Below are positions 35,021-45,989 of a stretch of 64,000 bases of DNA, one piece after another. Made by a program: the position numbers and the translations under genes. Each line of letters opens with the position of its first letter. Within the stretch, counting starts at the first letter, position 1. The stretch is from Verrucomicrobiota bacterium (lineage in GTDB: Bacteria > Verrucomicrobiota > Verrucomicrobiia > CAIQCK01). The notes under the pieces were generated by a model that ran no database searches, was not told where the DNA came from, and saw only the letters and a list, made by a program, of their open reading frames with translations. The DNA lies in NCBI GenBank assembly GCA_026397915.1, contig JAPLTX010000014.1:186001-250000 (forward strand), given 5' to 3'.

Positions 35021-36474
35021 GGTGTGTTCCTGGGCTGCGGCTGCGTCTTCGACTTGCCGGGCTTGAAGTTCGGATTGGGTTTCGGCAACGCGGCACCGAC
35101 GGATTCGCGCCACGCGTGGAGGCGCTGGCGCAACGAGGTGGCCCGGTCAGGCATCTGCTGCGCGAGGTCATGTTGCTCGGCGGGATCGTTGCGGAGGTCG
35201 AAAAGCTCGGCGCGGTTGCCCTCGAAATACTCCAGCAGTTTCCAATCGCGTGTGCGGATGGCGCTGACGGGCGTCGTCGTGTGGTAGTAGTGCGGGTAAT
35301 GAAAGAAGAGCGCATCGCGGCCGAGCTTCGCGGCGGGGTTCTTCAGCAACGGCGCGATATCCACGCCGTCGGTGGCGTTGGCGTCGGGCGGCAGTCCGGC
35401 GGCGCCCAGCAAGGTCTGGAAAAGGTCCGTCAGGATGACCGGTTCGCCGCAGGTCGCGCCCGCGGGCGTCAAGCCCGGCCAGCGCACCATGAGCGGGACG
35501 CGGATGCCGCCTTCATACAGCGAGCCTTTGCCGGAGCGCAACGGAGCGTTGCTCGTGACCGGGATGCGCCGGTCGCCGACCTTGTCGAGGCCGACGTAGC
35601 CGCCGTTGTCGCTGGCGAACACGACCACGGTGTTGCGGTCAAGGCCGCGCTGTTTCAGGCAGGCGAGCACACGGCCGACGTTGTCGTCGAGGTTCTTGAC
35701 CATCGCGGCGTAGATGGCGTGCTGATGGTTGAGTCCTTCGCGCAGCTTCGCCTCGAAATGTTTCACGTCGTCCGGCTTCGCCTCGATCGGCGTGTGCGGC
35801 GCATGGTGGGCCAGGTAGAGGAAGAACGGTTTTTCACCGGCGCGAGCGATGATGCGCAGCGCCTCGTCGGTAAGCCGGTCGGTGAGGTATTCGCCGGGTT
35901 GGCCAAACTCCAGATGCGGCACGTAGCGGAACTGCGCGCCGAACCGCCCTGCGCCGCTGTAGGGCCAGAAGAACGTTTGCGGCGCGCCCCAATGCGTGCC
36001 GCCGATATTCACGTCGAAGCCGTGCGTCTCCGGGTAATGGTCCGCGTCGCCGAGGTGCCATTTGCCGACGAGCGCGGTGAAGTAGCCGGCGGACTGGAGA
36101 TGTTTCGCCAGCGTGGTCTCCGTGTGGGCGAGGTTGGGGAACGATTCGCCGGCGAGAAGCTTGCGGTTCTTCGGGCCGCCGTCAATCGCGCCTTCCGACC
36201 AGATGGTCATGCGCAGCCGCGCCGCATGTTTGCCGGTCATCAACGTTGCGCGCGTCGGCGAGCAGACCGGCATCGCGCAGGCCGCGGTGAAGCGCACGCC
36301 GTCGCTGGCGAACCGGTCGAGGTGCGGCGTCTCGTGTAAATCCGCGCCATAGCATCCGAGGTCGGACCAGCCGAGATCGTCGGCGAGGATGAGGACGATG
36401 TTGGGTTTATCAGCCGCAGAGGCGACACACGAAAAACACAAAAGCCAACGGAGAGAGCGGCAGAGGATGTTCAT
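35017..36474 (-). CDS. Sulfatase 14 (arylsulfatase A-like)
   Basis: The 485-residue exported sulfatase begins MNILCRSLRWLLCFSCVASA and shows NIVLILADDLGWSDLGCYGA and VCSPTRATLMTGKHAARLRM with Cys71 as formylglycine. GKWHLGDADHYPETHGFDVN, a Gly/Trp-rich loop (GGTHWGAPQTFFWPYSGAG) and VFASDNGGYVGLDKVGDRRI follow. The CSPTR..TGKHAARLRMTIW form groups it with sulfatases 2 and 17. Overlaps of four bases join it to sulfatase 15 upstream and sulfatase 13 downstream, so three genes are tightly coupled. The last 15 residues are Lys/Gln/Pro-rich. Confidence 0.94.
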   Translation of the reverse strand: MNILCRSLRWLLCFSCVASAADKPNIVLILADDLGWSDLGCYGADLHETPHLDRFASDGVRFTAACAMPVCSPTRATLMTGKHAARLRMTIWSEGAIDGGPKNRKLLAGESFPNLAHTETTLAKHLQSAGYFTALVGKWHLGDADHYPETHGFDVNIGGTHWGAPQTFFWPYSGAGRFGAQFRYVPHLEFGQPGEYLTDRLTDEALRIIARAGEKPFFLYLAHHAPHTPIEAKPDDVKHFEAKLREGLNHQHAIYAAMVKNLDDNVGRVLACLKQRGLDRNTVVVFASDNGGYVGLDKVGDRRIPVTSNAPLRSGKGSLYEGGIRVPLMVRWPGLTPAGATCGEPVILTDLFQTLLGAAGLPPDANATDGVDIAPLLKNPAAKLGRDALFFHYPHYYHTTTPVSAIRTRDWKLLEYFEGNRAELFDLRNDPAEQHDLAQQMPDRATSLRQRLHAWRESVGAALPKPNPNFKPGKSKTQPQPRNTP

Positions 36475-38105
36475 GGCTGGGTCGGTGGCGCGGCGATGAT
36501 GTCCACGCTGCGCTTTGAGGCGCGGATGGCGCGATAGGTGGCTTCCATGCGCTTCACGCGTTCGGCGTGGGAAGGTTCGGCGATCAGGTTTTTCTGCTCG
36601 GCGAGATCGTTCTTCAAATCATAGAGCGCTGCGGGAGCGTCGTTTTTCACGTCGAGCATCAGCTTGAAGTCGCCTTCGTAGATCGCGTGGGCGATGCCTT
36701 GGCTGGGCATCTTGGCCGCATCATCGGGCCGAATCTTGCCAGCGCCTTTGCCTTTGCGAGCCGCTTTGCCTTTCGCTCCAGCCTTGGCGGCGGGGGTTTG
36801 TTTCTTCGCGGCGGCGACCGTGCCTTCGCGAGTGAGCACCACGCTCGCGTCAACAAAGCCGCCGTCTTGGTTCACATCGCGGCCGGGCGAGGATTCGATG
36901 AGCATGGCGCGGCGCACGGGCCGGGTGTCATCGCGCTGGCCGAGCAACACGGGCGCGATGCTCACGGAGTCGAGACATTGGTCGCTGGGAACCTTCGCGC
37001 CGGCCAATTCGACCAGCGTGGGCGCGATGTCGTTGATACAGACGAACTGGTCTCGCACGCTGCCGGCGGCGACCTTGCCGGGCCAGCGCACGATGAACGG
37101 CACGCGATGGCCGCCCTCGAAGATGAAACTCTTCTTCCCGCGCAAACCGCCGACCGCGTCGTGGCCGAAGTTGCGCTCGTAGGGCAGGCCGCCGTTGTCG
37201 CTGGTGAAATAGATGACGGTGTTGGCCAGCGAGCCGCGCTGCTCCAGCATCGCCATGAGTTTGCCGAGCAGGATGTCCGGCTCCATCACCATGTCGGTGT
37301 GCTCGGTCATCTTGGTCTGACCTTTCAACGCGGTGCCGCGAATACTCTCGGCTGGCACATAGGGCGCGTGGCCACCATCGGTGCAGAAGTGCATGAAGAA
37401 CGGCGCGTCCTTGCGCTCGCGCTGGTGGAGGTCGAGGAACTTCTCCGCGTGATCCAGCAGCCGCCCGCCGACTTTGCTGTGGTCCCAGCCCGGCTCGGTG
37501 TAATCAATGCACACGCCGCGCTGGACGGTCTTGCCCTGGATGAGCTTGTCTGCGCCGACTTCCGGCAGTTCGTTGACGAGGAACAGCAGCGGCAGCGCCT
37601 GATGCCCGCGCGGAATGATCGCGCTGTAATCGAAGCCCCACGCGCGCAGTCCCTCGATCATCGGCTTGGTGAAGTCGGGATTGCCGTCGGCCAGCTTCGC
37701 GTGTTCGCCGCCAAAGCCCTGTTTGCCGAACATCGCGGTGTGATAACCCGCGTCCTTGAGCAGGTTCGCCACCGTCTTCTGCCCCGGCAGGATTTGCGAG
37801 GGCACGTGAAACCCCCAGGTGCTGCCGGGCGCGCGACCGCGCCAGGGATGATTGCCGGTGAGGAGCGAGTATCGCGTTGGCGAGCAGAGCGCGGCGGGCG
37901 TGTGCGCGTGGGTGAACCGCATGCCTTCGCGCGCGAGCCGGTCCACGCTTGGCGCGGTGATTTTGCTCTTCGGGTTGTAGCAAGCGTAATCGCCCCAGCC
38001 GACGTCGTCGGTGAGAACGACGAGAAAGTTGGGCCTGTCAGCCGCGCGGAGCGCCAGCGGCGCCAACAGCAGCGACATCAGTAGTCTAAGTGCGTGTTTC
38101 ATCAT
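36471..38105 (-). CDS. Sulfatase 15, first gene of the 27-kb directon
   Basis: I start at 38105 (MMKHALRLLMSLLLAPLALR) because AGGAAG lies six bases upstream; the ORF start at 38201 is not signal-like. The 544-residue protein has FLVVLTDDVGWGDYACYNPK and LCSPTRYSLLTGNHPWRGRA with Cys74 as formylglycine, FGKQGFGGEHAKLADGNPDF where others have GKWHLG, and YFTSDNGGLPYERNFG. The TGNHPWRG element groups it with sulfatase 7. A Lys/Ala/Gly-rich insert (KAGAKGKAARKGKGAGKIRP) lies near residue 465. As the most upstream gene of the run its 5' region probably holds the main promoter. Confidence 0.93.
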   Translation of the reverse strand: MMKHALRLLMSLLLAPLALRAADRPNFLVVLTDDVGWGDYACYNPKSKITAPSVDRLAREGMRFTHAHTPAALCSPTRYSLLTGNHPWRGRAPGSTWGFHVPSQILPGQKTVANLLKDAGYHTAMFGKQGFGGEHAKLADGNPDFTKPMIEGLRAWGFDYSAIIPRGHQALPLLFLVNELPEVGADKLIQGKTVQRGVCIDYTEPGWDHSKVGGRLLDHAEKFLDLHQRERKDAPFFMHFCTDGGHAPYVPAESIRGTALKGQTKMTEHTDMVMEPDILLGKLMAMLEQRGSLANTVIYFTSDNGGLPYERNFGHDAVGGLRGKKSFIFEGGHRVPFIVRWPGKVAAGSVRDQFVCINDIAPTLVELAGAKVPSDQCLDSVSIAPVLLGQRDDTRPVRRAMLIESSPGRDVNQDGGFVDASVVLTREGTVAAAKKQTPAAKAGAKGKAARKGKGAGKIRPDDAAKMPSQGIAHAIYEGDFKLMLDVKNDAPAALYDLKNDLAEQKNLIAEPSHAERVKRMEATYRAIRASKRSVDIIAAPPTQP

Positions 38106-38361
38106 TGTTCGCTTCCTGTGCTCCTTGCTCTGTCGGTCTTTTTCCAACACCGAAATTGGCGAATCGTTTCGGCTCCAATGATACTGCGCGCCGTCCATCA
38201 CGATTGCGAAGCAATCCTTGCCGCGCTCTCGCCGTCTGCGCTACACTCCGCGCCAGAATGTTCGCGGATTCCCCAGACTCTTTCCAGCGAAATGGCCACA
38301 GCAGACTCGGCCCCGACGCGACGGAAGTTCGGCTGCAACAATCTCCAAAGGAGATATCTAA
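38106..38361. other. Divergent intergenic region between sulfatase 15 and the helicase gene
   Basis: These 256 bases must hold the promoters of both the 27-kb sulfatase directon and the helicase. I see small inverted repeats, CCGAAA(38150-38155)/TTTCGG(38167-38172), ATTGG/CCAAT nested with it, and GATTGC-GAA-GCAATC (38202-38216), but no convincing -35/-10 pair. AAAGGAG at 38346-38352 is the helicase ribosome-binding site. Confidence 0.5.
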
Positions 38362-39978
38362 ATGCCGGAAGAACTCGAACTGACCGAGGAAATTCGTCGG
38401 GTAGAAAACATTTTCCACAACACCAACCGGAATTTTCTCGTTCTTGGAAGTGCAGGAACGGGAAAGAGTTTTCTGCTAAAACGTTTGGTCGAGAACTCCC
38501 GCAAAAGACTTCAGGTTTTGTCGTTCACGGGCTTGGCAGCTCTCCAAGTTGGCGGGCGCACCATCCACAGCTTCTTTGGATTCGACCTCGGCCTCCAGAA
38601 GCGGTCGCACTTACTGCTGACGGGGACTGCTGAACAACAAGAGAATCGCCGGCGCGCATTTCAAAGTCTCGAAGCAATTCTGATAGATGAGGTTTCAATG
38701 CTTCGCGCAGACCTGCTTGATGCTGTTGATGGCGTTTTACGGGAACACGGTCCGCGACCGGGCGAACCGTTTGGAGGTGTTCAGGTCGGGCTATTCGGTG
38801 ACGTTTTGCAGTTGCCGCCAATTGTCGACGACGACGTCGACCAAGCGTTTCGCGCACAAGCCAACAACCTGTCAATGCCGGTTTGGGATGAGGGATGGAT
38901 TTCACCTTGGTTCTTCGATTCGTTCGCATATAGGACGGGCGGATTTATGCGGCTGACCTTGAATCATGTTTTTCGCCAGCAAAACGAGGCGGTGGAAGGA
39001 GTGGAGTTCATTCGGTCCCTCCAGCGATTACGAGAAGGCCGGATGCAGCCAGAGGATTATGATCTCATCAATTCGAGAGTCCACAACGACCGGCCCCAAA
39101 AAGCTCTCTCGCTCGTGACCACGAACAAGGAAGCTGATAGGGAGAATGACGCGAGGTTCAATGCGCTGCCAGGCCTTCCTAAAACCTATCGGGCATTTCG
39201 AGCAGAGAACTGGCCGAAACATTGGAAGGGGAAATCATACGAGCCAGTTCCTGAAACGGTTGAAATCAAGAAGGACGCTTGGGTGTTGGTTTGCGCGAAC
39301 ATCGCCGATTCCGGTTTGGTGAACGGCAGCTTGGGCACTGTGCTTCACTGCGATGACGAAGAAGTGGTCCTACAGGTCGGCAACCGAGAAGCTTCTGTCC
39401 CGAGATACGTTTGGAAGTTCCCAATCTGGCGGTGGGACGGCGAAAACAAGAGAATGGTCAAGGACGGCGAGACAATCTACTCGCAAATGCCGCTGAAACT
39501 TGCATGGGCCATGACCATTCACAAGGCACAAGGTCAAACTGTTGACGGCCCGATGTGCGTTGACCTCGGACAGCGGATGTGGTCCGGAGGCCAAGCATAC
39601 GTCGCGTTGTCTCGCGTCAGGCGTCTCGATCAACTCCACCTCCGAAGACCCGTGACAAACGAGGATGTTCTGGTCGAGAGGAAAGCGCGGCAGTTTCTCT
39701 GCGAGGGAGACTCGGCCACTTCTTTTGACGAAACTCGTGCACTAGCCGCCACGGTGTATCGAAAAACCAAGAAAATGAAGGACAAGACCGTCGAGGAGAG
39801 AGAGCGTGCAGAACACGCTCAAAAACGCATTGAGACGCTCTTGACCGATGCCGCTGCCACACTTCAAGAATGGAAGCAAGTGGTGACAAGAATCGCCGCC
39901 TCTGAAAAGAAGATTCTGTCAGCATTGGAGCAAGCGAAGAAAGCTGGTTGGTTGGAACGTTTGCTTGGCAGATTCTGA
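38362..39978 (+). CDS. Pif1/RecD-like superfamily 1 DNA helicase
   Basis: The 538-residue protein has a strong AAAGGAGATAT site before its ATG. Helicase motifs appear in order: Walker A GSAGTGKS (29-36), SFTGLAALQVGGRTIHSFFG (motif Ia, typical of Pif1), LIDEVSML (Walker B, Asp109-Glu110), GDVLQLPP (motif III), LAWAMTIHKAQGQT (motif V) and AYVALSRVR (motif VI). The C-terminal 100 residues look like a charged coiled coil (KKMKDKTVEERERAEHAQKR). Pif1-type enzymes unwind DNA 5'-3'. It interrupts the sulfatase cluster and its composition is visibly less G+C-rich, suggesting recent acquisition. No partner nuclease or transposase is adjacent. Confidence 0.88.
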   Translation: MPEELELTEEIRRVENIFHNTNRNFLVLGSAGTGKSFLLKRLVENSRKRLQVLSFTGLAALQVGGRTIHSFFGFDLGLQKRSHLLLTGTAEQQENRRRAFQSLEAILIDEVSMLRADLLDAVDGVLREHGPRPGEPFGGVQVGLFGDVLQLPPIVDDDVDQAFRAQANNLSMPVWDEGWISPWFFDSFAYRTGGFMRLTLNHVFRQQNEAVEGVEFIRSLQRLREGRMQPEDYDLINSRVHNDRPQKALSLVTTNKEADRENDARFNALPGLPKTYRAFRAENWPKHWKGKSYEPVPETVEIKKDAWVLVCANIADSGLVNGSLGTVLHCDDEEVVLQVGNREASVPRYVWKFPIWRWDGENKRMVKDGETIYSQMPLKLAWAMTIHKAQGQTVDGPMCVDLGQRMWSGGQAYVALSRVRRLDQLHLRRPVTNEDVLVERKARQFLCEGDSATSFDETRALAATVYRKTKKMKDKTVEERERAEHAQKRIETLLTDAAATLQEWKQVVTRIAASEKKILSALEQAKKAGWLERLLGRF

Positions 39979-40097
39979 ATTCATTTCCCCAAGGTAATTC
40001 ATTGCAACTCCGGGTTGATTGCCGCAGCCATGTTAGGGCAAAGGCCAATTCATGGAGGATCGCAGGTTGTTTGGGAGGTCATGGTGGTATTGGAACG

Positions 40098-40151
40098 CAA
40101 CCGGGCACACGCACTAGAATCGCCAACTCTTGTAGTGCATGTGCCCGGTTG
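40098..40151. repeat. 54-bp hairpin with 19-bp arms
   Basis: CAACCGGGCACACGCACTA (40098-40116) and TAGTGCATGTGCCCGGTTG (40133-40151) are inverted copies with one mismatch, around a 16-base loop. In minus-strand RNA the mismatch becomes a G-U pair, so all 19 positions would pair. No run of T follows on the plus strand, so it is not a standard terminator. It lies 119 bases after the helicase stop. Confidence 0.85.
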
Positions 40152-40200
40152 CTCTCTCAGCATTGTATGACTGGCAGACGGGAAGATGTTACGAGCCTTT

Positions 40201-40206
40201 AGGAGG
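40201..40206 (+). promoter_or_regulatory. Perfect AGGAGG ribosome-binding site
   Basis: AGGAGG lies nine bases before an ATG at 40216. It is the best Shine-Dalgarno match I noticed in the window, yet leads only into a 47-codon ORF that ends inside the 21-bp repeats. Confidence 0.6.
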
Positions 40207-40215
40207 ATTTTTTCT

Positions 40216-40359
40216 ATGTTTTCCACACGTTTTCGCATGTTTCCGACGTGGCGCGGCTGTTTTGGAGCCGTCGCGGGGATATGTGCCGCCGTCTGGTGGG
40301 GCTGTAACTCCGCCGGGGGGTTCTTTGCCGCCGCTGTGGAGATATGTTTCGCCGCTTGA
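40216..40359 (+). CDS. Possible 47-residue hydrophobic peptide running into the 21-bp repeats
   Basis: This ORF is too short for the track. It starts MFSTRFRMFPTWRGCFGAVA and continues with a hydrophobic, Cys/Ala/Gly-rich stretch (GICAAVWWGCN, GGFFAAAVEICFAA) before a TGA. The first 18 residues come from unique sequence; the rest comes from repeat units 1-5. After the TGA, and a TAG eight codons later, the same frame stays open and keeps a seven-residue periodicity (SAGRFLA, SAVWFFI, AAAGLFR, TAAAFLA). It may be a small membrane peptide, a leader peptide, or the broken start of a longer repeat protein. The perfect ribosome-binding site is the main support. Confidence 0.4.
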   Translation: MFSTRFRMFPTWRGCFGAVAGICAAVWWGCNSAGGFFAAAVEICFAA

Positions 40360-40521
40360 GCATTCTTTACCGCCGCTTGGTAGTTCCTTACAGCCGCTGT
40401 GGCGTTATTTCAATCCGCTGGAAGGTTCCTTGCCTCCGCTGTGTGGTTCTTTATCGCCGCTGCGGGATTATTCCGCACCGCTGCGGCATTCCTCGCGGAC
40501 GCTGGAAGGTTCCGTCCCGCC
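40270..40521. repeat. Twelve contiguous 21-bp tandem repeats
   Basis: Twelve units of exactly 21 bp fill 40270-40521 with no insertions. The consensus is roughly GCTGNGGNGTTCTTTNCCGC followed by C: the junction CCGCTG and the central TT are strongly kept, while bases 5-9 and 16-19 vary. Because 21 is a multiple of three, each plus-strand frame reads a seven-residue periodic peptide (PLEGSLP-, YRRxxVP- or SAGRFLA-like). Units 1-3 are the most diverged. A further weak unit may precede 40270. Confidence 0.9.
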
Positions 40522-40612
40522 GCCTTGCCGGGCTGCGGGCGGCGGGTGGGAAAAACGCTTGCCTTGTCGCGAGGGGCGGAGTTACAAGGGCGCGAACCAC
40601 TCCTTACATATT

Positions 40613-40933
40613 ATGAGCACGACGAACAGTTCCACGGGAAAGCCGCTGTTGTCGCTGGCGCAGGTCAGCAAGTTGTTGAGCGATGAGACGCGGTGGCGGT
40701 TGTTGCGGGAGATGAGCAAGGGAGAGATGCTGCCGACCGCCGATCTGGCCAAGCGCGCGGGGACGACTCCCGACTCGGCATACAAGCACCTGATCGTCTT
40801 GAACCGGATGGGTGTCGCGGTGCAGCGCTATCGCGGGTTCTTCGCGATGACGCCCGCGTTCCTGCCGCCCGCCGGCTCGACGACGCTGGACCTCGGCCAC
40901 TGCGTGGTCAAACTCGACACGCCGCTGGAGTAG
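40613..40933 (+). CDS. Small winged-helix (ArsR-like) transcription regulator
   Basis: The 106-residue protein starts MSTTNSSTGKPLLSLAQVSK and has an ArsR-type winged helix: VSKLLSDETRWRLLREMSKG, then the helix-turn-helix TADLAKRAGTTPDSAYKHLI and the wing VAVQRYRGFFAMTPAF. The tail GSTTLDLGHCVVKLDTPLE resembles many small HTH proteins I associate with verrucomicrobia. There is no metal-binding cysteine cluster. The frame stays open upstream to 40139 through the 21-bp repeats, so a longer form is possible, but nothing in that extension looks like folded protein. It is the only recognisable regulator in the window and converges on the second sulfatase block. Confidence 0.78.
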   Translation: MSTTNSSTGKPLLSLAQVSKLLSDETRWRLLREMSKGEMLPTADLAKRAGTTPDSAYKHLIVLNRMGVAVQRYRGFFAMTPAFLPPAGSTTLDLGHCVVKLDTPLE

Positions 40934-40934
40934 G

Positions 40935-40954
40935 CGGGCGGGCAGAACCGCCCG
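40935..40954. terminator. Possible bidirectional terminator between the regulator and sulfatase 16
   Basis: CGGGCGG-GCAGAA-CCGCCCG forms a 7-bp G+C-rich hairpin in the 30-base gap between two convergent genes. The position suits a shared terminator; there is no clear T-run on either side. Confidence 0.45.
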
Positions 40955-40963
40955 GCAGCTTCA

Positions 40964-42694
40964 TCACTTGTTCTTTCCGCCGGTGATGAACTCATCGCGG
41001 CTGAGGACGCCGTCCTTGTTCTTGTCGAACTGGATGAAACGCTTCGGCGCTTCGTCGGGATCGGGCTGGCCGGTGAGGAACTCCTCGCGCGTGAGCTTGC
41101 CGTCGCCGTCCTTGTCGCGCTTGTCGAACATCGCGCCCCGGTCTTGCTTTGGCTTTTTCGATGCGGGCTTGGCGCCGGCTTTCTTGGCGCTGCCAATCTG
41201 CGGCTTCGCTTCCGGCTGCTTAGCGAGGATGGCGCGGAGCTGCGCGACGACCTCCGGCTTGTCGGCGGCGAGGTTTTTCGTTTCGTCGGGGTCGGCTTCG
41301 TAATCGTAAAGCTCCAGCACGGCGGTGTCGGCCGGTTCGCCGATCTTCTTCCACTCGACGAGCCGGTAGCGCGCGGTGCGGACGGCGCGGCCCATGCCCT
41401 GGCTGCGCGGATAGACGTGGAGGACGGCTTCCTTCGTCTTGGCGGCGGGATTTTTCAACGCGGCGGCGAAACTCGCGCCGTCGAGGCCTTGCGGCGCGGG
41501 CAGGCCGGCGAGTTCGCAGAGCGTCGGGTAGATGTCCACCGACTCGGCGAGTGCACCGGTCTTCGCGCCGGCCCTGGCAACACCGGGCGCGACGACGATG
41601 AGCGGGATGCGCGCGGCCTGTTCGTAGTTGGTGTGCTTGCACCACATGCCGTGGTCGCCGAGATGCCAGCCGTGGTCGCCCCAGAGGACGATGAGGGTGT
41701 TCTTCGCGAGGCCGTTGCGGTCGAGCGCGTCGAGCACGCGGCCAAGCTGCGCGTCCATGTAGCTCGTCGCGGCGTGGTAGCCGTGGATGAGCAGGCGCGT
41801 CTTCGCGTCGTCGGGCGGGCCGACCTCCGGGATGTCGCTGTATTGGCGCAGCTCGCCCCACGTCGTCGGCGCGAACTCCGGCGCGCCGATGGGCGGCACG
41901 CGCAGCTTCGGCAACGGAAACGCCGCGCGGTCGTAGAGGTCCCAGTATTTCTTCGGCGCGATGAACGGCAGGTGCGGCTTGAGGAAGCCGACGGCGATGA
42001 ACCACGGCTCGCCGGGTTTGGCTTTGGCGGCGTCGAGACGGCGGACGGCCTCGTCGGCGATCATGCCGTCGCCGTAGGTGGTGTCCGGCACGTCAGCGCA
42101 TTCGGTCGCCGCGCCGCGCGGCAGCTTCCACGGGTCCACCTTCGCGTTGGAGAAGCGCGCTTCCTCGCGGGTCATCTCCTTGGGGCGGTTCTCCTTGAGC
42201 ACATAGCCGCCGCCCTGGACGCCCATCGGCCGCCAATGCTCGACGCTCCACGACGCGGGGTCCTCGGTGTTGCCGTGGCCGACGTGGAATATCTTCCCCA
42301 TCGCCTCGGTGCGATAGCCGTGCTGCTTGAAATACTGCGCCAGTGTCACGGCGTCGGGCACGCTCTTGCGGAAGTTGGTGGCGAGGTCGTAGATGCCGAG
42401 TGTCTGCGACCGCAGGCCGGTCATGAGCGCGTTGCGCGACGGCGAGCAGACGGCTTGGTTGCAGAACGCGCGCTCGAACAGCACCCCGCGCGTCGCGAGC
42501 CGGTCAATGTTCGGCGACTTCACGATCGGCGTGCCGTAACAACCGAGCAGCGGCTTGAGGTCGTCCACGCAGATGAGCAGGACGTTTGGATTTTGGATTT
42601 TGGATTCTGGATTTTGGATTGGTGCTTCAGCCGCGTGCAACGTGGCCGGAACAGTTAGCAACAAAGCAGTGAAGATGGTGAGGATATGTCTCAT
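40964..42694 (-). CDS. Sulfatase 16 (iduronate-2-sulfatase-like) with C-terminal EF-hands
   Basis: I start at MRHILTIFTALLLTVPATLH (42694), giving 576 residues. LLICVDDLKPLLGCYGTPIV and VCSPSRNALMTGLRSQTLGI (Cys83 as formylglycine) closely recall iduronate-2-sulfatase, as does GKIFHVGHGNTEDPASW; LWGDHGWHLGDHGMWCKHTN completes the site. The C-terminus has two EF-hand loops, DKRDKDGDGKLTREEF and DKNKDGVLSRDEF, after a basic linker (KKAGAKPASKKPK). The mature N-terminus contains APIQNPESKIQNPN, encoded by five heptamers and not expected in the family. Iduronate 2-sulfate is a plausible substrate. Confidence 0.94.
   Translation of the reverse strand: MRHILTIFTALLLTVPATLHAAEAPIQNPESKIQNPNVLLICVDDLKPLLGCYGTPIVKSPNIDRLATRGVLFERAFCNQAVCSPSRNALMTGLRSQTLGIYDLATNFRKSVPDAVTLAQYFKQHGYRTEAMGKIFHVGHGNTEDPASWSVEHWRPMGVQGGGYVLKENRPKEMTREEARFSNAKVDPWKLPRGAATECADVPDTTYGDGMIADEAVRRLDAAKAKPGEPWFIAVGFLKPHLPFIAPKKYWDLYDRAAFPLPKLRVPPIGAPEFAPTTWGELRQYSDIPEVGPPDDAKTRLLIHGYHAATSYMDAQLGRVLDALDRNGLAKNTLIVLWGDHGWHLGDHGMWCKHTNYEQAARIPLIVVAPGVARAGAKTGALAESVDIYPTLCELAGLPAPQGLDGASFAAALKNPAAKTKEAVLHVYPRSQGMGRAVRTARYRLVEWKKIGEPADTAVLELYDYEADPDETKNLAADKPEVVAQLRAILAKQPEAKPQIGSAKKAGAKPASKKPKQDRGAMFDKRDKDGDGKLTREEFLTGQPDPDEAPKRFIQFDKNKDGVLSRDEFITGGKNK
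42585..42619. repeat. Five heptamers (TTTGGAT) inside sulfatase 16
   Basis: TTTGGAT, TTTGGAT, TTTGGAT, TCTGGAT, TTTGGAT occupy 42585-42619 within the coding sequence and are translated as IQNPESKIQNP just before the first metal-binding strand. Thirty-five bases is not a multiple of three, yet the frame is open. Confidence 0.85.
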
Positions 42695-42718
42695 GGGCGC
42701 GGTCCTGAATAACTGCAA

Positions 42719-44278
42719 TCACGGCAACTGCGGTTTCAGTGGCGTGGTGCCGTCCTTGTCCACGGGGTAAAGGGCGTTGTGTTTCTCCAAGCTCGCGATC
42801 AACCCACGCATCATGCGGCGGAGTTCGTCGGGTTTGGAGGCGGCGAGGTCGTTTTGCTCGAAGGGGTCGTCCTTGAGGTTGAAAAGCTGGTAATGCGCGC
42901 CACCGGACTGGATGGAGCCGCCATGTGTGGGAACATCGGGCAGGGCGTGGTAGATGACTTTCCAGTCGCCATCCCGCCAGACGGTGAAGTAGTTGCTGCG
43001 ATGCGGCGCGTGCGGATAATTCATGAGGAATTGTTCCGGGCGGCGGCTGTCGCGTTTGCCGGTGAGCAGCGTGTCGAGGCGCGCGCCGTCCACGATGTGC
43101 TTCCCGGGCGATTTGACGCCAGTGAGCGCGAGGATGGTGGGGAACATATCGTAGATAGCCGCTTGCTGACTTTGGATGGCGCCAACGGCGATAGGCAGTC
43201 GCTTCTGATACGCGTTGCCGGCGGCCTTCGCCCACGCGGCGATGAACGGCACTCTCATGCCGCCTTCGTAGTGCGCGCCTTTCTTGCCGCGCAGCGGCGC
43301 GGCGCAGGCGACCTCATGCTGGTGGCCCAGCGGTGCGTCCGAGCCGTTGTCGCCGAGGAAGAAGATGAGCGTGTTGTCGGCCACGCCGAGTTTGTCGAGG
43401 TGATCGAGCACGTCGCCGAGCGATTTGTCCATGCCCTCGATAAGCGTCGCGAAGGCTTGCGCGTCCTTTGGCTTGCCGGAGTTCTCGTAATGCGCGGCGA
43501 ATCGCGGGTCGGAGTTGAACGGCGCGTGGACGGCGTAGTGCGCGAAGTAGAGGAAGAACGGTTTGCCGGACTTTACCGCATCGCCAACGCGCGCGTTGGC
43601 CTCCAGCGTGAGGGCCTCGCTTAGGAAGATGTCTTGGCCGTGGTATTTCTCCAGGCCGGGGACGGCGTTGCCTGGCCCCGCCTTGCCCTTCTTGCCTTTG
43701 GGGTTCGTCGGACGACCGAAGTTCTGCGTGCCGTAGTAACTGCCCGGCGCGCCGATGGAACAGCCGGCAACGTTGATGTCGAAGCCGAGGTTCTTCGGCT
43801 CGGCGCCCTCGAATGCACGCGCCCCGAAGTGGCCTTTGCCGACGTGGATGGTGCGGTAGCCCGCCGCTTGGAGCAACCGTGGCAGCGTCACGTCGCCCTT
43901 CTTCAAACCTTTCCAGTTCCAGTGGGGTGGGCCTTGGGGGCCGGCGTTGTCCTTGTCGGGATTGATCCAGTTCGTCGTGTGATGCCGCGCTGCGTTCTGG
44001 CCGGTCAGGATGGAGATGCGCGTGGGCGAACAAACGCTCATAGCGCAGAAGTTGTTGAAGCGGACGCCGCGCGCTGCCAGCCGTTCCATGTTCGGCGTGC
44101 GGTAGTAGTCGTTGAGCGGATACCGCTTCGGCGTGCCCGCCGCATCGGTGAGGAACGGCACCGAGGTGTCCATCACGCCCATGTCATCCACGAGGAAGAT
44201 GATGATGTTGGGTTTGGTTTCGGCCGCGAAAACCGTCGCGGCCAGCAACGGCAGAAGCAGTTGGATCAGTTTTCTCAT
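42719..44278 (-). CDS. Sulfatase 17 (arylsulfatase A-like, long loops)
   Basis: The 519-residue exported sulfatase follows GAGGAAAG and begins MRKLIQLLLPLLAATVFAAE. NIIIFLVDDMGVMDTSVPFL is followed by an unusual insert (TDAAGTPKRYPLNDYYRTPN) before VCSPTRISILTGQNAARHHT, with Cys83 as formylglycine. VGKGHFGARAFEGAEPKNLG has Gly-His where most have Trp-His, and FLGDNGSDAPLGHQHE completes the site. It groups with sulfatases 2 and 14. A basic loop (NPKGKKGKAGPGN) sits near residue 205. Ten bases separate it from sulfatase 18 and 24 from sulfatase 16. Confidence 0.93.
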   Translation of the reverse strand: MRKLIQLLLPLLAATVFAAETKPNIIIFLVDDMGVMDTSVPFLTDAAGTPKRYPLNDYYRTPNMERLAARGVRFNNFCAMSVCSPTRISILTGQNAARHHTTNWINPDKDNAGPQGPPHWNWKGLKKGDVTLPRLLQAAGYRTIHVGKGHFGARAFEGAEPKNLGFDINVAGCSIGAPGSYYGTQNFGRPTNPKGKKGKAGPGNAVPGLEKYHGQDIFLSEALTLEANARVGDAVKSGKPFFLYFAHYAVHAPFNSDPRFAAHYENSGKPKDAQAFATLIEGMDKSLGDVLDHLDKLGVADNTLIFFLGDNGSDAPLGHQHEVACAAPLRGKKGAHYEGGMRVPFIAAWAKAAGNAYQKRLPIAVGAIQSQQAAIYDMFPTILALTGVKSPGKHIVDGARLDTLLTGKRDSRRPEQFLMNYPHAPHRSNYFTVWRDGDWKVIYHALPDVPTHGGSIQSGGAHYQLFNLKDDPFEQNDLAASKPDELRRMMRGLIASLEKHNALYPVDKDGTTPLKPQLP

Positions 44279-44288
44279 GGCTTTCCTC

Positions 44289-45989
44289 TCACGGTTTCAA
44301 TTTGCCGCCCATCGTCACGAACTCTTCCTCGCTGAGCACGCCGTCCTTGTTCGTGTCGAACGTCGGGAAGCGGCGGCGGCCCTCGGCCTCATCGGGGAAC
44401 TTGTGGAGGTATTCCTCCAGCGTGAGCTTGCCGTCCTTGTTCGTGTCCTTGGCTTTGAACATCGTCGGGCGGTCGGGCGCGGCTTTGCCCTGCGATTTAC
44501 CCTTGGCCTTGCCGGGTTGGCGCGGCGTATCCACCGGTTTGCCGGTGGCGGCGGCTGTCTCTCGCGCTTTGCTCGGCGGCAACGTTTTCTGCCATGCCAG
44601 CGACTTCGCCGTGAGTTCCTTCACCACGTCCGGATGCCCGGCGGCGACATCATGCTCCTCGCCGATGTCTTTCGGGATGTTGTAGAGCTGCGCGCCGCTG
44701 CCGCTGTGGTTCACAAAGAGTTTCCACGGGCCATCGCGGACGGCGAGCATCGGCGGCATGTAGTCGTCACCCCAGACGCGGAAAAGCCATTCCCAGTGCA
44801 GCGGCTTCGAGCGCGGGCGCGACTTGCCGAGCCAGATGTCGCTCACGTCTTCGCCGTCCGGCTGCACTTCCGCAGGCACTGTCACGCCGGTGAGTTTGCA
44901 AACCGTCGGCAGCCAGTCCACCGCGCCGACCACACTTGTGTCGTCCACGCGGCCGGCGGCGACGCGGCCGGGCCAGCGCAACAGGCCGAACGTGCGGACG
45001 CCGCCCTCATACATGCTGCGTTTGCGCGCGCGCAGCGGGCCGGTGTTGCCGACGCCGGCGTTCGCGGCATTGCTGATGTTGTAGTCCTCGGGACCATTGT
45101 CGCTGGAGAGAAAGACGATCGTGTTGTCCGTCAGACCGAGTTCGTCCAGCGTGCGCAACAGCCGGCCAACCTGCGTGTCGAGGTCGGTCAGCGACGCGCA
45201 GAAGATGCGCATCTGGCTCTTCAGGTCTTTCGCCGAGCCGAGATACTTCTGCATCCACGGCCCGAACGCCGGGTCGGCGGCACGCGGTTCGAGGTCGTCA
45301 TAGACGGCAAGTTGTTCCGGCGTGGGGTCGAGTTTGGCGTGCGGCAATAGCGTCCAGACGTTGAGGTAGAACGGCTTCTCCTTGTTCTCGCGCAAGAACG
45401 CGATGGCGTGGTCCATGATGATGCCGGTGGACTTGCCCCACCAGTGCGGCTCCGGCTTGGCGTCCTTCTCGCGCAACTGCGGGCCGTTGGAAACGATGGT
45501 GACGTGTTTGTTGATGCCGTAAGCGCCCGGTTCCGGCGCGCCGTCGCCGCTGCCGAGATGCCATTTGCCAAAGTGGCCGGTCGTATAGCCGGCTTGCTGG
45601 AGTAGCCGCGTGATCGTTGGCACCTTCGGGTCAAGCCAGTCGGGCATGGAACGGGACGCGTTCTGCTCGTGCGTCGCGAAGTGGCCGTGGACGAGATGCC
45701 GCGCCGGGTAGTGCGAGGTCATGAACGCGCACCGGCTCGGCGAGCAGACCGTCGCGGCGACATAGAACTGCTTGAACCACGTGCTCTGGCTGGCGAACCG
45801 GTCGAGATTTGGCGTCTTCACGTAAGGATGCCCGGCGAACCGCGCGTCGTTCCAGCCCTGGTCGTCGGTGAGGATGAAGATGACGTTGGGCTTCTTCTCC
45901 GCCGCGATGGCAGAGGCGAGACAGACCGTTGCGACAAGCGCCGCCGCCAGCCACCAACGCCGGCGAGGCCATGATGTTGATGCTGTCAT
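44289..45989 (-). CDS. Sulfatase 18 with C-terminal EF-hands
   Basis: The 566-residue exported enzyme has a Trp-rich signal peptide (RRRWWLAAALVATVCLASAI), FILTDDQGWNDARFAGHPYV, and VCSPSRCAFMTSHYPARHLV with Cys82 as formylglycine. FGKWHLGSGDGAPEPGAYGI and LSSDNGPEDYNISN follow. After a basic linker (RQPGKAKGKSQGKAAPD) it ends with two EF-hand loops, DTNKDGKLTLEEY and DTNKDGVLSEEEF, homologous to the tail of sulfatase 16 although the catalytic domains are of different types. The EF-hands probably bind calcium and may stabilise the enzyme or tether it. Confidence 0.93.
   Translation of the reverse strand: MTASTSWPRRRWWLAAALVATVCLASAIAAEKKPNVIFILTDDQGWNDARFAGHPYVKTPNLDRFASQSTWFKQFYVAATVCSPSRCAFMTSHYPARHLVHGHFATHEQNASRSMPDWLDPKVPTITRLLQQAGYTTGHFGKWHLGSGDGAPEPGAYGINKHVTIVSNGPQLREKDAKPEPHWWGKSTGIIMDHAIAFLRENKEKPFYLNVWTLLPHAKLDPTPEQLAVYDDLEPRAADPAFGPWMQKYLGSAKDLKSQMRIFCASLTDLDTQVGRLLRTLDELGLTDNTIVFLSSDNGPEDYNISNAANAGVGNTGPLRARKRSMYEGGVRTFGLLRWPGRVAAGRVDDTSVVGAVDWLPTVCKLTGVTVPAEVQPDGEDVSDIWLGKSRPRSKPLHWEWLFRVWGDDYMPPMLAVRDGPWKLFVNHSGSGAQLYNIPKDIGEEHDVAAGHPDVVKELTAKSLAWQKTLPPSKARETAAATGKPVDTPRQPGKAKGKSQGKAAPDRPTMFKAKDTNKDGKLTLEEYLHKFPDEAEGRRRFPTFDTNKDGVLSEEEFVTMGGKLKP

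Follow-up and report, generated by a model that had tools for sequence, protein, structure and literature searches.

Tandem 21-bp direct repeats and the small winged-helix gene that follows them probably form a stand-alone autoregulatory module, in which an ArsR-like protein would assemble on an array whose motif is private to it. The module was found in a 64,000-nucleotide stretch of a Verrucomicrobiota genome (the window), and its relatives are spread over many loci in other, mostly metagenome-assembled, genomes.

The array and the regulator gene

The forward strand of the window carries 13 consecutive 21-bp units with the consensus CTTTgCCGCCGCTGgGGGGTT at positions 40260-40532, putative sites for the HTH protein, preceded by two weak leading units at 40218-40259 with 9/21 identity to the consensus. 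Each of the 13 units agrees with the consensus at 11-18 of its 21 positions, and 12 of them reach at least 13 matches, a level attained by only 0.16% of window positions. Identity at lag 21 reaches 0.61 over the best 252 bp, which fall in the array, whereas the rest of the window does not exceed 0.41, with a background mean of 0.30 (s.d. 0.037); in the 500 bp upstream of the HTH gene the autocorrelation stands at z of about 10, 8 and 8 for lags 21, 42 and 63. The initial annotation had described twelve repeats followed by an HTH gene, and register, autocorrelation and gene calling confirm that both are real, although the count has to be raised to 13, not including the two weak units. Tandem Repeats Finder detects 21-bp repeats at 40319-40462 together with a 42-bp super-period; such a super-period arises from two alternating unit types in some HTH-linked arrays (e.g. 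L035 in genome G003, and window positions 40351-40462). A similarity search located no second site for the window array in its own genome.

The gene at 40613-40933 (forward strand) encodes a 106-residue winged-helix protein, as the small HTH protein of the initial annotation is identified by Pfam and PDB profile matches. Its scores lie below the curated cut-offs of both Pfam HTH_20 (E=1.5e-4, 22.1 bits against a gathering score of 27) and NCBIfam HTH_metalloreg (32.2 against 55). A profile search of PDB structures retrieves ArsR/SmtB regulators with a best E of 1.8e-8, and the AlphaFold model (pLDDT 83.6) matches CadC, BigR and HlyU. The protein has a single cysteine (C97) and no CxC metal-binding motif in its recognition region, and a C-terminal motif resembling LDFGHCLLRLD is common to its relatives. 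On account of the sub-threshold scores, the lone cysteine and the missing metal motif it is, judged by sequence and modelled fold, a distant ArsR/SmtB relative and not a filed member. Membership in a defence system was considered and rejected, the matches to Csa3/CasR being generic to the HTH fold.

A predicted promoter for the gene, TTGCCT-18-TACAAG, lies downstream of the array at 40559-40588 on the forward strand (p=0.01 against shuffles) and recurs in the orthologues L022 and L023. Across the loci promoter-like sites occur between array and gene, and the confident -35 boxes mostly begin 8-32 bp past the array end; the helical phasing of array and promoter is not significant. The region at 40201-40359 (forward strand), in which the initial annotation saw a ribosome-binding site and a tiny reading frame, does hold an AGGAGG (40201-40206) and an ATG at 40216 that starts a hydrophobic 47-codon ORF. 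They are judged to be no real part of the unit, as L022 and L023 have neither AGGAGG nor ATG at the corresponding place.

The surroundings of the module include a run of sulfatase genes (36471-38201, 40964-42718, 42719-44278 and 44289-45989, together spanning 36471-45989), which encloses both the module and a PIF1-like helicase gene (38362-39978); two of the sulfatases end in C-terminal EF-hand-like repeats. Between the helicase gene and the array there is a strong inverted repeat, 40097-40117 / 40132-40152, with 20 of 21 pairs matched by eye, a 14-base loop and no T-run.

Linkage of arrays to the regulator family

A homologue search with the window protein alone as query, and hence blind to arrays, yielded nine full-length matches at E<=1e-13 including the window protein itself, and all nine have a 21-bp array immediately upstream; the next match, L025 (2e-10), is without one. 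In a single genome (G451) with 16 matched loci, arrays were present at all 15 with readable upstream DNA. Further searches brought the total to 42 array-bearing loci from several families and two or more classes, each array comprising 5-18 units (median 11) and ending about 50-215 bp (median 99) before the matched coding region. The period is mostly 21, and 42 at L048, L058, L107 and L112. Arrays lie directly upstream of nearly every close family member and never downstream.

Periodic stretches at lag 21 number 40 in 635 kb (flanks plus window), against 0-6 at other periods from 17 to 25, and 34 of them sit upstream of a family gene (33 by listing, L159 on reading); the remaining six are one orphan array and five stretches of apparently coding sequence. 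The detector favours well-conserved arrays. A family profile, built from array-bearing members and thus biased towards array carriers, found 42 family loci in the flanks searched, with an array at about 35 and none visible at seven more distant ones. Neither some 30 other winged-helix loci nor the four more distant matches in the window's own genome (G000) have a comparable array. The initial annotation would have called the association accidental had HTH homologues never carried repeats nearby; almost all close homologues carry them, and on this comparative evidence the association is not accidental.

Several loci depart from the common layout. The orphan array (L133:3885-4257, contig C131 of G451) has about 15 units and no visible family HTH gene, with the family locus L079 some 4 kb off. 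Upstream of L043 (G290), a more distant family member, the periodicity is irregular, near 43-45 and 65 bp instead of 21. L265 (G000:C3:206315-206602) is a possible pseudogene of an L107-type regulator with an in-frame TAA and no array, unlike L107 itself, which in G006 has a 42-bp array.

The module appears to consist of array and gene alone, because the orthologues share no flanking genes other than paralogous sulfatases, and no neighbour family apart from sulfatases recurs across the loci. This bears on the question whether the array mainly organises a nucleoprotein structure, a filament serving segregation, recombination or silencing, with effects on the adjacent promoter being secondary. 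There are precedents for such an arrangement. TubR of type III partition systems is a small winged-helix protein that forms filaments on a block of direct repeats (tubC) upstream of its own operon and represses it (PMC5016525), and RdfS is an oligomeric winged-helix protein that makes helical filaments and binds near its own promoter (PMC11963761); moreover, up to 18 units per array exceed the usual need of a promoter. The loci described here resemble TubR-tubC in that a winged-helix protein has direct repeats upstream of its own gene; unlike TubR-tubC they are chromosomal, occur in many copies per genome, have a two-turn spacing of 21 bp and lack an adjacent TubZ-like gene. RdfS, one of the winged-helix recombination directionality factors, acts at sites that lack a clear consensus and belongs to an integrative element, whereas the present loci have strictly repeated motifs and no integrase beside them. 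No TubZ-like GTPase, ParA or integrase recurs beside the modules, of which a single genome may have as many as 16; family loci occur on chromosome-sized contigs of up to 834 kb, and searches for plasmid or viral relatives returned no matches. A primarily architectural role is thus unlikely, though it fares best among the alternatives to autoregulation.

Somewhat less probable still is that these genomes carry 21-bp arrays quite generally, generated by slippage or kept for another protein, with the HTH gene being just one of their many neighbours. Period-21 stretches are indeed plentiful, 13 in 800 kb of G001 and 12 in 861 kb of G000, against 0-5 for any one of the other periods between 17 and 26, and apart from the window array and a few coding false positives they are unlinked to the HTH family; since such arrays share genomes with the regulators, 21-bp arrays are not exclusive to the family. 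They form a second class (in G001, L189, L190, L201, L203, L208, L210, L211, L213 and L218; in G000, L231, L250, L253, L255 and L260) that is mostly palindromic (mean dyad z 2.8) and folds strongly (z -4.1). The HTH-linked arrays are of another kind: they are not palindromic, do not fold and show a 10.5-bp conservation pattern. A background of about one array per 70 kb also stands against their position directly in front of the close family members, and other winged-helix genes are without them.

The second class has features of its own. Each array has its own motif, e.g. AAATCCGTGACGGATTT in L213 and AAGATGCATCTT in L190, with one motif common to L189 and L203. Compensatory changes between units are not general (highest z 2.6). 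The arrays adjoin genes such as PEP carboxykinase and those for fibronectin-like and collagen-like proteins; in several instances a palindromic array stands just upstream of a small fibronectin-like or collagen-like protein (L255:2724-3425, L255:4022-4435, L218:5398-6144, L210:5441-5938, L260:13-909 and L201:13859-14710), several of them homologous between G000 and G001.

Helical pattern and private motifs

Averaged over the 42 HTH-linked arrays, the spectrum of conservation within the unit shows just one peak, at 10.5 bp (z=7.5), in a test that covers the harmonics of 21 only, which corresponds to two equally spaced conserved patches per unit; no signal appears at 3 or 7 bp. The 10.5-bp signal persists when only G451 is analysed (z=3.2), when G451 is left out (z=6.8) and when each motif cluster is represented by one array (z=6.7), and the pattern points to a protein that reads one face of the double helix. 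Some units contain clear dyads with half-sites about 10 bp apart, such as AGAA-N6-TTCT in L041. Dyad half-sites as a general rule were dropped, the symmetry being weak on average (z 0.40 +/- 0.20).

The initial annotation had offered three readings of the repeats, of which the array as binding sites for the HTH protein is the one these comparisons favour. It is very improbable that the array is instead translated into a variable heptad-repeat peptide or functions as a structured leader RNA: the unit length is a multiple of three, in the window one frame runs without a stop from 40139 through the HTH gene, and the 47-codon ORF with its AGGAGG exists, but conservation has no 3-bp periodicity, 16 of the 42 arrays are interrupted in every frame and just three are open in frame with the gene, the start codon and AGGAGG are unconserved, folding is no better than that of shuffled DNA on either strand (z -0.58 +/- 0.26 over 42 arrays), no Rfam family matches over the array, and the predicted promoter comes only after the array. 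Because of the 10.5-bp peaks, the missing 3-bp signal, the shuffle-like folding and the rarity of frames open into the gene, the arrays are most likely DNA-binding sites, with about one dimer per two helical turns.

The motif of an array goes together with the protein encoded behind it. Motifs are common to the orthologues L021, L022 and L023 (r 0.83-0.84), L048 and L058 (0.94) and L077 and L078 (0.85), and paralogues carry differing motifs. A motif comparison aimed at targets in trans found no match between HTH-linked arrays and arrays unlinked to the family in the same genome. A single consensus for all homologues was rejected, motifs being common to orthologues only. The check suggested in the initial annotation, a search for one common consensus ahead of HTH homologues, would have failed, because every paralogue has its own repeat sequence. 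Where the motifs of two loci match (r above 0.75), their recognition helices share 69% identity or more; in pairs whose protein bodies are similar and whose motifs are unrelated, helix identity is 23-69%. With the rest of the protein taken into account, motif similarity tracks the recognition helix (partial association, permutation p=0.009), most of this co-variation resting on a few close orthologue pairs, since motif similarity is at background level for proteins under about 60% identity. Read most simply, the sequences suggest that every protein binds the array in front of its gene.

A candidate self-addressed switch

The ArsR/SmtB regulators (CadC, CmtR, BigR, HlyU and the SdpR autorepressors) resemble the window protein in fold and sequence; they are small solo regulators that frequently control their own promoter, and their operators usually consist of one or two imperfect inverted repeats. 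The module described here differs by its 5-18 tandem direct units, its private motif, the missing CxC metal motif and the sub-cut-off scores. Dimers of the ArsR type typically span some 20 bp. From this geometry we infer that the small winged-helix protein binds its own array with about one dimer per 21-bp unit, or two helical turns, and that each dimer would contact one face of the DNA in two patches separated by a single turn. With one dimer per unit successive dimers would line up on that face, favouring a cooperative filling of the array. Occupancy beside the -35 box would then set the transcription of the regulator's own gene, whether up or down; since confident -35 boxes mostly begin so near the array end, a bound array could contact or exclude RNA polymerase. 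The outcome would be a self-addressed autoregulatory loop, probably switch-like, and since the recognition helix and the array co-vary among paralogues, several such modules could coexist in one genome.

A winged-helix protein with direct repeats upstream is already known from TubR-tubC (PMC5016525). REP elements, short intergenic repeats found in many prokaryotes by searches that include Verrucomicrobia (PMC3733652), are dispersed high-copy palindromes, unlike the local tandem arrays with private motifs tied to one gene family. Among open-access papers no matching description turned up for 21-bp arrays, ArsR arrays or tandem repeats in Verrucomicrobia, and private stand-alone arrays across a phylum were not found described there.

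That nearly all close relatives across the Verrucomicrobiota carry an array of their own, with a different motif, points to a widespread self-addressed genetic switch. A bolder and more tentative proposal, possible though less probable than the single-module reading, is that of a large and fast-evolving switch family with mutually orthogonal paralogues, at least 15 in one genome, alongside a palindromic 21-bp class serving other genes with the same two-turn geometry. If the switch is what it seems, it would represent a phylum-wide regulatory architecture in which many operators keep an exact helical phase, every regulator has a private motif, and regulator and array change together. It would provide dozens of natural protein-array pairs from which the DNA specificity of winged-helix proteins might be learned, a source of regulatory parts that may prove orthogonal, and a direct way to test how very long operator arrays affect a bacterial promoter.
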